From Granulosicoccus sp. (lineage in GTDB: Bacteria > Pseudomonadota > Gammaproteobacteria > Granulosicoccales > Granulosicoccaceae), in NCBI GenBank assembly GCA_013002205.1, contig JABDKN010000097.1, positions 1 to 37,738 on the forward strand: a DNA stretch of 37,738 nt, read 5' to 3'. Position 1 is the stretch's first letter. Each line of letters begins with the position of its first letter. Position numbers and translations under genes: made by a program. The notes under the pieces are model-generated. The model had not been told where the DNA came from. It did no database searches and worked only from the letters and a program-made list of their open reading frames with translations. Positions 7,600 to 32,897 of this stretch are shown piece by piece.

Positions 7600-8352
7600 T
7601 CAGGTCATGACCATGCCACCGTTGACGCTGATGGTCTGGCCTGTGATGTACGCCGCTGCCGGAGAAGCCAGGAACAGACAGGTCTGGGCTATGTCCTCTG
7701 GAGTCCCCAACCGACCCAAAGCGATCTCGCTCATGAGTTTCGCTTTCTGTTGCTCCGGCAACGCATCGGTCATGTCCGATTCGATGAAACCGGGTGCTAC
7801 TGCATTCACGGTTATGGAACGCGATCCGAGTTCGCGGGCCAGGGATCTGGTCATGCCCAGCACACCTGCTTTCGATGCAGAATAGTTCACCTGCCCGGCG
7901 TTGCCCGTGATTCCCACTACCGAGCTGATGTTGATGATTCGCCCTTGGCGCGCCTTGACCATGGGCTTGACGACCAGTCGGCAGAGCCGGAATACGCTGG
8001 TCAGATTGGTCGCAATGACGTCGTCCCATTCCGCATCCTTCATGCGCATAAAGAGATTGTCCCGGGTGATGCCGGCATTGTTGACCAGGATGCTGACAGG
8101 GCCGAAAGTACTGCTGATGTGATCGATTGCCGAGGCCGTACTGTCAGCATCGGTCACATCGAGACACAGACCGGTTCCGGCGATTCCCGCCTCCTTGAAC
8201 CGGGTCGATATTGCTTCTGCCCCCTGGTCCGAGGTTGCCGTGCCGATGACGGAAGCGCCGTGGGCACCGAGCAGGTCGCTGATGGCGGCACCGATACCGC
8301 GGCTGGCTCCGGTGACCAGGGCAATCTGCTTGTCGAGCAATTTATCTGTCAC
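7600..8352 (-). CDS. fabG: 3-oxoacyl-[acyl-carrier-protein] reductase
   Basis: NADPH-dependent ketoreductase of type II fatty acid synthesis, 250 residues, in the short-chain dehydrogenase fold. The cofactor loop TGASRGIG is at 14-21, NNAG at 91-94, and the catalytic S144, Y157 and K161 are present. The C-terminal ITGQTISVNGGM matches FabG rather than generic SDR enzymes, as does the fab-cluster context. The start is GTG with a weak ribosome binding site, 54 bases after fabD. Confidence 0.95.
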   Translation of the reverse strand: MTDKLLDKQIALVTGASRGIGAAISDLLGAHGASVIGTATSDQGAEAISTRFKEAGIAGTGLCLDVTDADSTASAIDHISSTFGPVSILVNNAGITRDNLFMRMKDAEWDDVIATNLTSVFRLCRLVVKPMVKARQGRIINISSVVGITGNAGQVNYSASKAGVLGMTRSLARELGSRSITVNAVAPGFIESDMTDALPEQQKAKLMSEIALGRLGTPEDIAQTCLFLASPAAAYITGQTISVNGGMVMT

Positions 8353-28468: not shown

Positions 28469-29083
28469 TCATGTCTGGCGCAGCAGTCGCATGAAGCGCA
28501 TTGTGAAAAGACCCAGTAACAGCGCCAGATACACCAGGGGTTCGAGTAGATCCCCTTTGGCCAGCCACACGTAGTGCACCACCGCTGCCGCACCTGCCAG
28601 ATAGACACCGCGGTGCAGAATGCTCCAGCGTCGGCCCAGACGCCGCACCATCTTCCGGGTCGAGGTCGCGGCCAGCGGAACCAGAATCAGGAACGCCAGC
28701 GTACCGGCCACGATGTAGGGTCGTTCGGAGAGGTCTTCCCAGATGGCTGCCAGATCAAGCTGTTGATCCAGAAACAGATAGATCGACACGTGCAGGACGG
28801 CGTAGAAAAAAGCGAACAGACCGAGCATGCGCCGCAGCCTGATGGGCCAGGTGTCTTTCAATAACCAGCGCAGGGGGGTCAGGGACAGACTGATCAGCAG
28901 CAGTCTTATCGCCAGCGTGCCGGTCTGGTCAGTCAGTGATTCAATCGGATTGGGCCCCAGGGCACCTGTGAACAGGGCGTGCAACAGATACACGAATGGC
29001 GTCAGAGCCAGCACGAAGACAACCGGTTTGAGCCAGGACGACCAGCGCACTCCCGGCGCGATTCTCACAACGATGCTGTGCAC
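28469..29083 (-). CDS. msrQ: Heme-binding membrane subunit MsrQ of methionine sulfoxide reductase
   Basis: Inner-membrane cytochrome b-type protein (204 residues, about five to six hydrophobic segments) passing electrons from the quinone pool to MsrP for repair of oxidised periplasmic proteins. Family features: a GPNPIESL-type loop with TG after it, the LLLISLSLTPLRWL helix, RRMLGLFAFFYAVLHVSIY with a heme-ligand histidine, and WSILHRGVYLAGAAAVVHYVW with further histidines. The start is GTG, 11 bases after msrP, giving the standard msrPQ operon. Confidence 0.94.
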   Translation of the reverse strand: MHSIVVRIAPGVRWSSWLKPVVFVLALTPFVYLLHALFTGALGPNPIESLTDQTGTLAIRLLLISLSLTPLRWLLKDTWPIRLRRMLGLFAFFYAVLHVSIYLFLDQQLDLAAIWEDLSERPYIVAGTLAFLILVPLAATSTRKMVRRLGRRWSILHRGVYLAGAAAVVHYVWLAKGDLLEPLVYLALLLGLFTMRFMRLLRQT

Positions 29084-29094
29084 GAACTGAATCG

Positions 29095-30060
29095 TCAGTG
29101 AAATTTCTGCAGATCCATCCCGTCGTACAGACCAGCGACTTCGTCGGCGTAGCCGTTCATGAACAGGGTATCGATCTTGGATGCAAACAATGCAGCCAGA
29201 GCACTGGTGTCACCTGAGAGTCGCCTTTCCTTTGCCTGGCTCCAGCGTGGATGTCTGCGACCCGGATTGACGTTGCTGTAGAAACCGTATTCCTGCGGTG
29301 CAGACATGTTCCAGCTGGTTGGCGGCTGTTCCTCCACGAAACTGATGCGCACGATCGACTTGATGCTCTTGTAGCCGTACTTCCATGGCACGACCAGTCT
29401 CAGCGGCGCGCCATTCTGGTTCGGCAGCACCTCGCCGTACATGCCGATGGTCACCAGCGTCAGGGGATGCATGGCTTCATCCATTCGCAGTCCCTCGCGA
29501 TACGGCCATTGCAGCACATTGCGGCGGATACCGGGCAGGTCATCCTGCACCACCGTTTCGAAAGCGACATACTTCGCCCTGGATGTCGGCTCGAAGCGCT
29601 TGAGCAGTTGCGCCAGGGAAAACCCGTTCCAGGGAATCACCATGGACCACGCTTCGACACACCGCATGCGATAGATACGTTCCTCGATGGCATGTGGCTT
29701 GAGCACGTCCTCCAGCGTATAGGTACCCGGCTTGCTGCATTCCCCGTCGATGACCACACTCCACGGCTCCGTCTTGAGCCGATTGGCGTACCGGACAGGA
29801 TCACCCTTGTCGGTACCCAGTTCATAGAAGTTGTTATAGGTGGTGGCCGTCTCCCTGGACGTGAGCTGTTCATCGGTACTGAACGCACTCCTGGCAATCG
29901 GCCCCGGCAGGCTGGCAGCTTGCGCGGCGGCTTGATGAGTGAGCACCGAAGCCACCCCGGCGGCGAGCGAGGCCTGAATCAGCTGGCGACGTTGCCTGAA
30001 GAGCCGCTGATCCGTAATTTCGCTGCTGCGTATACCCGCCATTTTCATCCAGTCGCGCAT
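29095..30060 (-). CDS. msrP: Periplasmic methionine sulfoxide reductase catalytic subunit MsrP
   Basis: Tat-exported molybdoenzyme that reduces methionine sulfoxide in periplasmic proteins. The 321-residue protein has a twin-arginine signal ([10 protein letters not shown]24-R25, then a hydrophobic stretch), [11 protein letters not shown], and the molybdopterin-ligand C134 in [10 protein letters not shown]. It also shows [28 protein letters not shown] and a conserved C-terminal [16 protein letters not shown] block. ATG 30060 has GAGG seven to eight bases upstream; longer frames lie before the Tat signal. Confidence 0.96.
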
Positions 30061-30354
30061 GATTGCCCTCGTTGAAGCCGTGTCAAAACGATTGTTCACT
30101 TGCCTTGCCTGCCTGCAGACGGAAACTGTCATCCTGTCGGTGGGACCGCATTCAGCCGTGTTAATTCCCGGCCGACAACAGGTAACAGCTGAAAGCGCAT
30201 ACACATCGCTGCATTAGTGCTTGAAAGAACCAGCAGTTCACGTAGATTGGCCATACTGTGAATTGGTCTTGGCCCGATTCCTGAATTGAGGTAAGCAATC
30301 GGTCGAGTACCTGTCGTCCTACCCAACTGACCAGCCCAGGCAAACCCTATACCA
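30061..30354. other. Divergent intergenic region, no gene or clear promoter seen
   Basis: This gap lies between msrP (minus) and the DUF4011-like gene (plus). It must hold both start regions, but no sigma70-like pair with acceptable spacing was found on either strand. A short minus-strand frame at 30129-30326 has no family features or ribosome binding site and is not called. Confidence 0.4.
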
Positions 30355-32400
30355 GTGGAAGTCTTGCACGGAAATCAATCAGGCTCCAGGCACTCCCGAC
30401 GCCGTTCGGACAAGATTGCCCTGGGTGAGAATCGGGCACTTGACTGGGGACGCCAGGATTCAGACATCGACCTGCTGCCGCACTCGCCGCTGGCTATCGC
30501 TGACGTACTGTCGAAACAGGGCGGTTTTCTGGACCTGGTGCCTCTGAATGTCGGGCAGAGTACGGTCTCACCTGAGGAGGGTGAGCATTCGACGCCGCCC
30601 GTGACGGAGAGTGGTTCGCGAAAGACGCGCCGACAGCGATGCAATCTCCTGACCCGTTATGACGCTGCCGAGCTGTGGCGGCAGTGCAAGAAGATTCTGG
30701 TGGAGAATGCACTGATCAAGGACAAGGGAGACAGGCAACTGTACCTTGCCGCAGGATTCATCAGCTGGCCAGATGCCAAGGACAACGCCGTCCGCCAGCG
30801 CGCACCACTGCTGCTCTATCCTGCCCTGCTGGTACGCATACCCGATGAACAACGCTACGAGATAAGACTGGCCGGCGACACGCCGGAGTTCAATCAGGCA
30901 CTGGTGCTGCACGCCGAACAGCGATTTGCCACAAAACTGCCCGTTCACGAGGATCAGCAGCCACTGGACGAATTCTTTGCGCAGGTCGCGCAATCCATCA
31001 ATGACTCACCGTCCCTGCAGCTGGAGTTCGATATTGCCCTGGGCAGCGCGGCGCTGTTTCACACCGGAGCTCACTCAGGTAAAGCCGTACAATTGCCCAA
31101 CCTGCCACGGTATTTCGATGTCGGACTGGCGATGAGCATTACCGGTAACAAAAGTCTCAGTCAGTTGAATGCCGTGCTGCAACTGATCCCGGATTACAGC
31201 CGGCCTGATACCACCATCAGTCCTGAGCCCGCGCCCATGACTCCCTCGACCAGTGTTGCCGCTCTGCGAAAGTACGCTGCCCGGCTGGCTGCGGAAGGCC
31301 TGGACCATGTGGAATTCAGGCAACTGCCCGCACTACCGGCAAAGATCGATCGCTGGACGGCCTCGATCAGGACGGCGCTGGAGAGCCAGACGATTCACCG
31401 CGTATTACAGATGCCGGAACTGTCGGCTCGTGAACTGATCCGGCTGGCCAGCATCATCGAGCTGGTTGATAAAGCCCCGGCCAGTATAGAGCAGTTCGGT
31501 CACGGCGATTTGAGCTTCGCCAGCAGCACGATCCTGCTGCGTCGGGCACAACATCAGGCCAGGCTGATCGAGGACGAACTGGCCGCACTGCAGGAGCATT
31601 TCGTGCTGGAAAAGGTGCCGGGCAAGTCCCAGTTACTGACCCTCATGGCCGAGCTTGGTAGCAGCATCGAACAAGGCCCTGACTTCGTCGACGCCGACTA
31701 CTTCAATGCGCGACGCCAGTTCATGGAGTTCAGCACACATAAGCCTGCCAACCTCACCAGCGAACACCGCCGATCGCTCTCGCAACTGGCCAAGGTGCTG
31801 CGCTTCCGCGAGTTGTTTGTCAACAACACGGAATACCGGGCAGCCCTGGGACCCGCTTACCGGGGTCTGCGTACCGATTGGACCATACTGAACCAGACCA
31901 GCGACTACGCCCGGGAACTTGCCGAAGTGCTGCAATCGGAAACGCTTGCCGCTCAGTTACTGCGAAGCTGGTCGGACTTCCGCTCGGCCTACAGTGTCGA
32001 ATTGGATACGCTGCAGTCTGCCGCCGATGCCTGTCGACGACTGCTGGGAACGGTTGGCACACGCTGGCAATCGCAGACCGCCACCTCGCTGGCCGACCAT
32101 GCACAACTGATTGCCTCGCGTCTGACAGACTGGGGTTGTGCCTACGGCCCGGTCGATAATCATGCGCACAAGACGCCAGCCATGGTCCTGTCCAGTTTCT
32201 CCGGTCGATCTCGCGACGACATGCTGGTGGAAACCCAGGTGGACGAGACGCGCATGCGCATCAACCGCCAATTGCAGACCGGGGAAATCCAGCGCGAGCA
32301 GATTACCGATACATTGAAGTGGCTGTCAGCCGCTGGCCAGACTGCCGCCGAAAACGACTCCGACATCGACACCATCGTGGAACATCTGCAGATAGCCTGA
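30355..32400 (+). CDS. Uncharacterised 681-residue protein with a DUF4011-like N-terminal region
   Basis: I do not know its function. Residues about 105-255 resemble the DUF4011 module at the N-terminus of large SF1 helicase/nuclease proteins: a LLTRYDA-type opening, RQLYLAAGFISW, RAPLLLYPALLVRI, RYEIRLAGDTPEFNQALV, and FATKLP. The rest is mostly helical with no family I recognise. There is no Walker A or other ATPase motif, so the helicase part of DUF4011 proteins is absent. There is no signal peptide or membrane segment. The start GTG 30355 has no good ribosome binding site; the first about 90 residues are poorly defined and the true start could be downstream. It is a single gene on its strand, flanked by msrPQ and the VOC gene, both on the other strand. 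Confidence 0.7.
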   Translation: MEVLHGNQSGSRHSRRRSDKIALGENRALDWGRQDSDIDLLPHSPLAIADVLSKQGGFLDLVPLNVGQSTVSPEEGEHSTPPVTESGSRKTRRQRCNLLTRYDAAELWRQCKKILVENALIKDKGDRQLYLAAGFISWPDAKDNAVRQRAPLLLYPALLVRIPDEQRYEIRLAGDTPEFNQALVLHAEQRFATKLPVHEDQQPLDEFFAQVAQSINDSPSLQLEFDIALGSAALFHTGAHSGKAVQLPNLPRYFDVGLAMSITGNKSLSQLNAVLQLIPDYSRPDTTISPEPAPMTPSTSVAALRKYAARLAAEGLDHVEFRQLPALPAKIDRWTASIRTALESQTIHRVLQMPELSARELIRLASIIELVDKAPASIEQFGHGDLSFASSTILLRRAQHQARLIEDELAALQEHFVLEKVPGKSQLLTLMAELGSSIEQGPDFVDADYFNARRQFMEFSTHKPANLTSEHRRSLSQLAKVLRFRELFVNNTEYRAALGPAYRGLRTDWTILNQTSDYARELAEVLQSETLAAQLLRSWSDFRSAYSVELDTLQSAADACRRLLGTVGTRWQSQTATSLADHAQLIASRLTDWGCAYGPVDNHAHKTPAMVLSSFSGRSRDDMLVETQVDETRMRINRQLQTGEIQREQITDTLKWLSAAGQTAAENDSDIDTIVEHLQIA

Positions 32401-32466: not shown

Positions 32467-32838
32467 TCAACGGTGCTGGTCGATCAGAATCTGGTTGCCA
32501 TCCGGATCAATCAAGCTGATGCTGGCCGGCCCGGAGGTCGACTCTTCGGCTACGCTGGCCAGCTCAGCACCCTTTTCCCTGAGCATACTCTGCAACTGGC
32601 GAACATCGGTGAAGGAATCCAGGTCCTCGCACTGCTGGTTCCATCCCGGGTTGAAGGTCAGGATATTGCGCTCGAACATGCCCTGAAACAAACCCAGCAC
32701 GTGCTCACCGTTCCTGAGCATCAGCCAGCCCTGATCGGCATCGCCGGCGAAGGGCAGAAAGCCCAGTTGCTCGTAAAAAAGTCTGGATCGCTCCAGATCC
32801 TGCACGGCCAGGCTGACCGAGAATGCGCCAAGCTGCAT
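32467..32838 (-). CDS. VOC (glyoxalase/bleomycin-resistance fold) family protein
   Basis: A 123-residue single VOC module pair: [22 protein letters not shown] at the start, an [10 protein letters not shown] segment in the middle, and [17 protein letters not shown] at the end. VOC proteins bind a metal and act on small molecules or bind drugs; the function here is unknown. The usual first metal histidine position is occupied by serine. ATG 32838 is chosen because GGAGGA sits just upstream; the ATG four codons earlier includes that Shine-Dalgarno. It follows the HAD gene by 59 bases on the same strand. Confidence 0.85.
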
Positions 32839-32897
32839 AGACTCCTCCATTGTCCGAGTGTCTGGTGGACTGCCGGATCAGCATAACATTCGGACGG

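Follow-up and report, generated by a model that had tools for sequence, protein, structure and literature searches.

A motor-less DUF4011 protein, conserved at the msrPQ locus of Granulosicoccaceae and probably derived from an Upf1-like helicase

Introduction

DUF4011 is a domain found within very large helicases, some of which take part in anti-phage systems. The Hhe protein has been classed as SF1_Upf1 (PMC10925250), and a large DUF4011 gene is a conserved flank of a defence hotspot in Pseudomonas aeruginosa (PMC10250203). In a contig of Granulosicoccus sp. (37,738 nucleotides, hereafter the window), a gene was predicted from the sequence alone to encode a DUF4011-like protein of 681 residues with no helicase attached. 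What, then, is this module without its motor? The original prediction left the choice between a remnant whose helicase was lost and a module that works alone, and considered the location of the gene uninformative. We addressed this question by examining the protein, its relatives, its locus and its selective regime.

Results

A DUF4011 domain without a motor

The predicted DUF4011 match is real: PF13195 scored 56.6 bits in a Pfam profile search, for a cut-off of 22.2 (Table 1). The module had been rightly recognised, but the limits proposed for it (residues 105-255) leave out its first part, given the Pfam match; the family alignment places the domain at about residues 85-235. DUF4011 was the sole Pfam family matched by the 681-aa protein, none other appearing even at E 10, and helicase, ATPase and nuclease families were absent at this threshold, as predicted. 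The orthologues follow the same pattern, with a DUF4011 match in 30 out of 31 (Pfam, E 0.01) and an ATPase core or nuclease family in none of the 31 (Pfam). Indeed, the RecA core typical of the Hhe/ProA class (Walker A, DExx, AAA_11/AAA_12) is missing from the window protein (Pfam, E 10) and from all 31 members, and the C-terminal MTES_1575 nuclease domain is likewise missing from the protein and its orthologues. The alignment of 31 sequences, at 20-71% identity to the window protein, contains 21 invariant columns, and the V/MEVLxGNQ motif at the start of the protein is conserved among close orthologues.

Table 1. Features of the locus (positions in the window)
Feature	Position	Strand	Remarks
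msrQ (Ferric_reduct)	28469..29083	-	PF01794, E 5.9e-19
msrP (Oxidored_molyb)	29095..30204	-	PF00174, E 1.7e-32; divergent neighbour
Motor-less DUF4011 gene	30355..32400	+	GTG at 30355, stop at 32400; complete frame, 681 aa
DUF4011 Pfam match	30430..30906	+	residues 26-184; PF13195, E 3.8e-15
Helicase-stalk homologous region	31090..32349	+	residues ~246-665; profile alignment to L159
Best-conserved stalk core	31477..31914	+	residues 375-520; YFxAR and LGxxYxGLxTxW-type motifs conserved
Small glyoxalase-like gene	32467..32850	-	between the DUF4011 gene and a HAD hydrolase gene

The C-terminal half resembles a helicase insertion

The original prediction was right about the missing motor but overlooked that the C-terminal half also appears to derive from a helicase, namely from an insertion between motifs I and II. 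Compared by BLAST with full-length DUF4011 helicases, the window protein aligned in two blocks, one being DUF4011 and the other lying between Walker A and DExx. Residues 284-508 aligned with residues 663-883 of one such helicase, L081 (E 7.9e-7), in which Walker A is found at 372 and DExx at 1302. The family profile was colinear and unbroken from 246 to 665 with residues 375-800 of L159 (E 5.5e-13); since the latter has its P-loop at 142 and its DExx at 1046, the stalk match falls between them. In L159, an AAA_12 domain and an MTES_1575 nuclease domain form the C-terminal end.

A profile of the C-terminal half also matched L156, an apparent further family copy in genome G031, which was rejected because it is a histidine kinase matched through its helical composition. 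Taking this match as a warning, we re-tested the stalk homology with a narrower profile, restricted to the best-conserved stretch (residues 375-520), and with reversed and shuffled controls. This profile matched full-length DUF4011 helicases, and in those with both Walker A and DExx identified the match invariably fell between them. It gave zero matches in reversed or shuffled sequences or in unrelated ORFs, and its matches among the other ORFs searched were confined to family members and their tandem paralogues. As judged by sequence comparison, the 681-aa protein consists of DUF4011 together with the greater part of the inter-motif insertion (the "stalk"), without the RecA motor and the nuclease.

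In Upf1-like SF1 helicases, motifs I and II are separated by a stalk and a 1B domain, which help to grip the nucleic acid and to link it with the motor. On the basis of its position, the insertion described here would be the equivalent of this stalk/1B region. In a viral Upf1-like helicase, the stalk and 1B domains are reported to be needed to separate double-stranded nucleic acid (PMC11939599).

Comparison with known DUF4011 systems

Hhe (PADLOC PDLC02194; NCBIfam NF042953), an Upf1-like SF1 helicase belonging to candidate defence systems, has DUF4011 in common with the window protein, whose stalk also matches positions 866-973 of the Hhe profile (E 2.2e-5 for the whole protein). However, Hhe proteins reach about 1700-1900 aa, against 681 aa for the window protein with neither RecA core nor MTES_1575 nuclease, and Hhe is an accessory gene whereas the gene studied here is a core one. 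With the anti-phage protein ProA (NCBIfam NF058533) and with PADLOC PDC-S37, the best stretch was in both cases residues 26-230 of the window protein (E 2.2e-21 and 3.6e-31, respectively). The NCBIfam ProA and Hhe models gave 75.1 and 63.8 bits, far under their cut-offs of 1500-2000 (1500 for ProA), with best stretches at the N-terminus; most of the ProA-like parent protein is gone from the window copy. Within the genus, the full-length helicases L081, L082 and L083 contain DUF4011 and the insertion in the same order as the window protein, but they keep Walker A and DExx, the two that were scanned (L081 and L083) carry a C-terminal MTES_1575 nuclease, and their loci are elsewhere in the genome.

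A core gene of the family at a conserved locus

Stand-alone orthologues were found in 45 of the 48 Granulosicoccaceae genomes (23/26 other genomes of the genus and 21/21 other genomes of the family; 95 genomes searched), as expected from the original prediction if the module is an independent family. Their frames measure about 640-760 aa, except in G004, where the copy is cut by the contig end, and identity falls to 20-25% between distant genera. Two findings named beforehand as speaking against the prediction, the lack of a DUF4011 profile match and full-length helicases as the orthologues in close relatives, were both looked for and neither was encountered. In GTDB genome contigs, the carriers are Granulosicoccus and Granulosicoccaceae, a few being deposited as "Chromatiales bacterium". 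The gene was not detected in three assemblies of the genus (G003, G008 and G022, 82-94% complete), but the block is probably missing from these assemblies or bins rather than lost, because msrP and a clear mdh match are missing there too.

Outside the family, the class (369 genomes searched) and the phylum (398 genomes) yielded no stand-alone gene of the same type with the family profile. The matches there were nearly all in long frames and mostly covered the DUF4011 part, the exceptions being a 333-aa DUF4011-only gene (G296), a 553-aa frame at a contig end (G388) and a weak match in a 128-aa frame (G442). The first of these (L157:2951-3952, plus strand), from another gammaproteobacterial family, follows a type I restriction HsdR gene and precedes an AAA ATPase gene. 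It resembles the window protein in having DUF4011 without a motor, but it lacks the stalk, lies in another neighbourhood and falls on the helicase side of the tree, and thus represents a separate case. No relative was confirmed in viral contigs and none was found in phages; no plasmid record covered 80% of the query, and the plasmid matches listed cover the DUF4011 region only. As far as tested, the motor-less offshoot is apparently confined to Granulosicoccaceae.

As predicted, no helicase gene follows: the 3' neighbours, on the opposite strand, are the glyoxalase-like gene and a HAD hydrolase gene, and then comes a phosphonate importer. The gene order mdh > msrQ < msrP < stand-alone gene > is kept across most of the family, msrP giving a strong match in 41 of the 48 genomes. 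On the opposite strand after the stand-alone gene, either a HAD hydrolase gene or purL directly is found; purL adjoins in most relatives, and the phosphonate importer intervenes in the window and in some of them. Far from being uninformative, this conserved synteny with msrPQ and, mostly, purL points to a vertically inherited core chromosomal gene and not to a defence-island passenger.

These observations bear on two other explanations. DUF4011 helicases belong to candidate defence systems (PADLOC PDC-S37, Hhe), and the 333-aa gene mentioned above adjoins HsdR; one could therefore imagine a stand-alone defence or anti-phage sensor, in which the DUF4011-stalk unit reads a phage nucleic acid or protein and signals via a putative effector. 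We judge this improbable, given that no defence gene surrounds the stand-alone gene within the window and that, unlike accessory defence genes, it is nearly universal at a fixed locus. A second explanation would be a redox or stress protein functionally tied to methionine sulfoxide repair by msrPQ, with a divergent promoter region in common. The genes are indeed adjoining, divergent and conserved as neighbours across most of the family, and the stand-alone gene and msrP are jointly missing in the three assemblies discussed above; however, these joint absences are probably assembly gaps, and G031 and G034 keep the stand-alone gene while msrP is missing. A functional tie to msrPQ thus seems unlikely to us, if slightly less so than a defence sensor.

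One relative has an insertion just downstream of the stand-alone gene, which encodes a hybrid histidine kinase and a small protein with a molybdopterin domain (L071:5977-7785 and 7800-8345, minus strand). Genes similar to this insertion are present in L070 and L072, making three relatives in all.

Selection and origin

The catalytic core is gone and the distant genera have diverged as far as described above, which could be expected if a helicase had been inactivated and what is left of it were slowly decaying, without function. The selection test refutes this explanation, to which we give very little credit. No internal stop was found in any orthologue copy, and pairwise dN/dS between near relatives ranged from 0.05 to 0.16 wherever dS was unsaturated, like that of msrQ; the invariant columns point the same way. 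The gene is not a pseudogene, with neither a broken frame nor relaxed selection, and the earlier argument that an intact frame speaks against simple decay was sound.

Phylogenetic analysis of the DUF4011 domain placed all 27 stand-alone sequences on one side of a branch with support 100/99. This topology is consistent with a common origin of the stand-alone genes, bearing in mind that long branches meet at that point. Three close relatives (G001, G012 and G024) possess full-length DUF4011 helicases at separate accessory loci, and these group with other helicases, apart from the stand-alone genes. Because the insertion is located inside the first RecA domain of the helicases, we infer that loss of the motor is far likelier than the reverse route. 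One old loss of the helicase, followed by retention under purifying selection, is the likely history; loss of the helicase and a module working alone, opposed in the original prediction, would each be true and are not alternatives.

No helicase partner in the host genome

A search for AAA_12, which is the second RecA domain in helicases of this class, gave no match in the host genome (98.7% complete) and matches in only 13 of the 48 family genomes. Within this completeness, an obligate trans partner of the AAA_12 type is excluded for the genome of the window. A missing helicase partner, or a helicase split over two genes, was rejected by the same search, and the DUF4011-stalk protein would not make up half of a two-gene helicase of this class.

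The stand-alone protein might still act as an adaptor, competitor or dominant-negative regulator, sharing a substrate or partner with accessory Hhe-like defence helicases and tuning them. Such helicases exist, since the full-length proteins of G001, G012 and G024 are encoded at second loci and the two that were scanned match PADLOC Hhe (E about 0). We nevertheless hold this role to be as improbable as that of a defence sensor, because the stand-alone gene is inherited at a fixed locus and is nearly universal in the family, whereas AAA_12 helicases have the restricted distribution given above.

A DUF4011 helicase split over two overlapping genes was observed in L088 (1689-5219 and 5137-7353, plus strand). 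Its first gene encodes DUF4011 and the first RecA part, and its second gene the second RecA part, the nuclease and a WGR domain.

Structural models

The AlphaFold2 model of the DUF4011 part (residues 88-264) was good (pTM 0.72). In the full model (mean pLDDT 82, pTM 0.53), the domains were confident and the arrangement between them was uncertain. Compared with the PDB, the DUF4011-part model gave a best Foldseek E of 0.5 and a best VIA Z of 2.8, neither of them convincing; a PDB sequence search with the 681-aa protein gave zero matches, and no BFVD match was found at E 0.001. The full model retrieved pore-forming toxins, SMC/MukB coiled coils, flagellins and transporters with Foldseek and VIA-align, which were set aside as generic helical bundles. 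The family profile matched the leucine-rich-repeat protein YopM over 71 profile positions (E 9.6e-5), likely by chance; this match was rejected because the matched stretch is predicted to be helical.

Discussion

We consider, with moderate confidence, that the gene product derives from a DUF4011 Upf1-like SF1 helicase of the Hhe/ProA type, lacks its motor and now acts as an ATP-independent binding or scaffold protein. According to this scenario, DUF4011 and the stalk would have been the clamp by which the parent enzyme bound its substrate or partner, and the motor would have been lost once, in the ancestor of Granulosicoccaceae or earlier. The retained DUF4011-stalk unit may then serve in housekeeping physiology, binding or scaffolding without ATP, its target being probably a nucleic acid or a nucleic-acid complex. 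Two observations argue against parts of this proposal. First, the window protein is mildly acidic (pI 5.9, net -13), which does not favour strong nucleic-acid binding. Most family members are likewise acidic but, unlike this majority, one genus has a mostly basic DUF4011 domain, and charge is therefore indecisive on this point. Second, the confidence between domains is low in the full model, and neither part is convincingly matched by a solved structure, so that the clamp idea comes without a structural template.

More tentatively, the protein could be regarded as a domesticated immune-helicase sensor, that is, a family-wide core protein made from two non-catalytic helicase parts and devoted to ATP-free recognition of a nucleic acid or partner in a housekeeping context; we see this as possible, but with doubts.

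The gene is a new, helicase-free variant of the already known DUF4011 family. No helicase-free family combining DUF4011 and the stalk was described in the open-access literature searched, a scope outside which most subscription journals lie. The gene shows that selection can maintain DUF4011 and the insertion in a protein that has no ATPase core of its own. Moreover, a conserved motor-free version of about 680 aa is a smaller object for studying what DUF4011 and the inter-motif insertion do and how they are built, and should interest helicase and phage-defence specialists chiefly as a manageable way into DUF4011.

The stalk also occurs by itself. Two genera of the family have, immediately upstream of the full stand-alone gene, a tandem paralogue consisting of the stalk alone (L075:10028-11092 and L090:8654-9766, both on the minus strand). 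These two proteins of 354-370 aa, which have no Pfam match, are 28% identical to each other.
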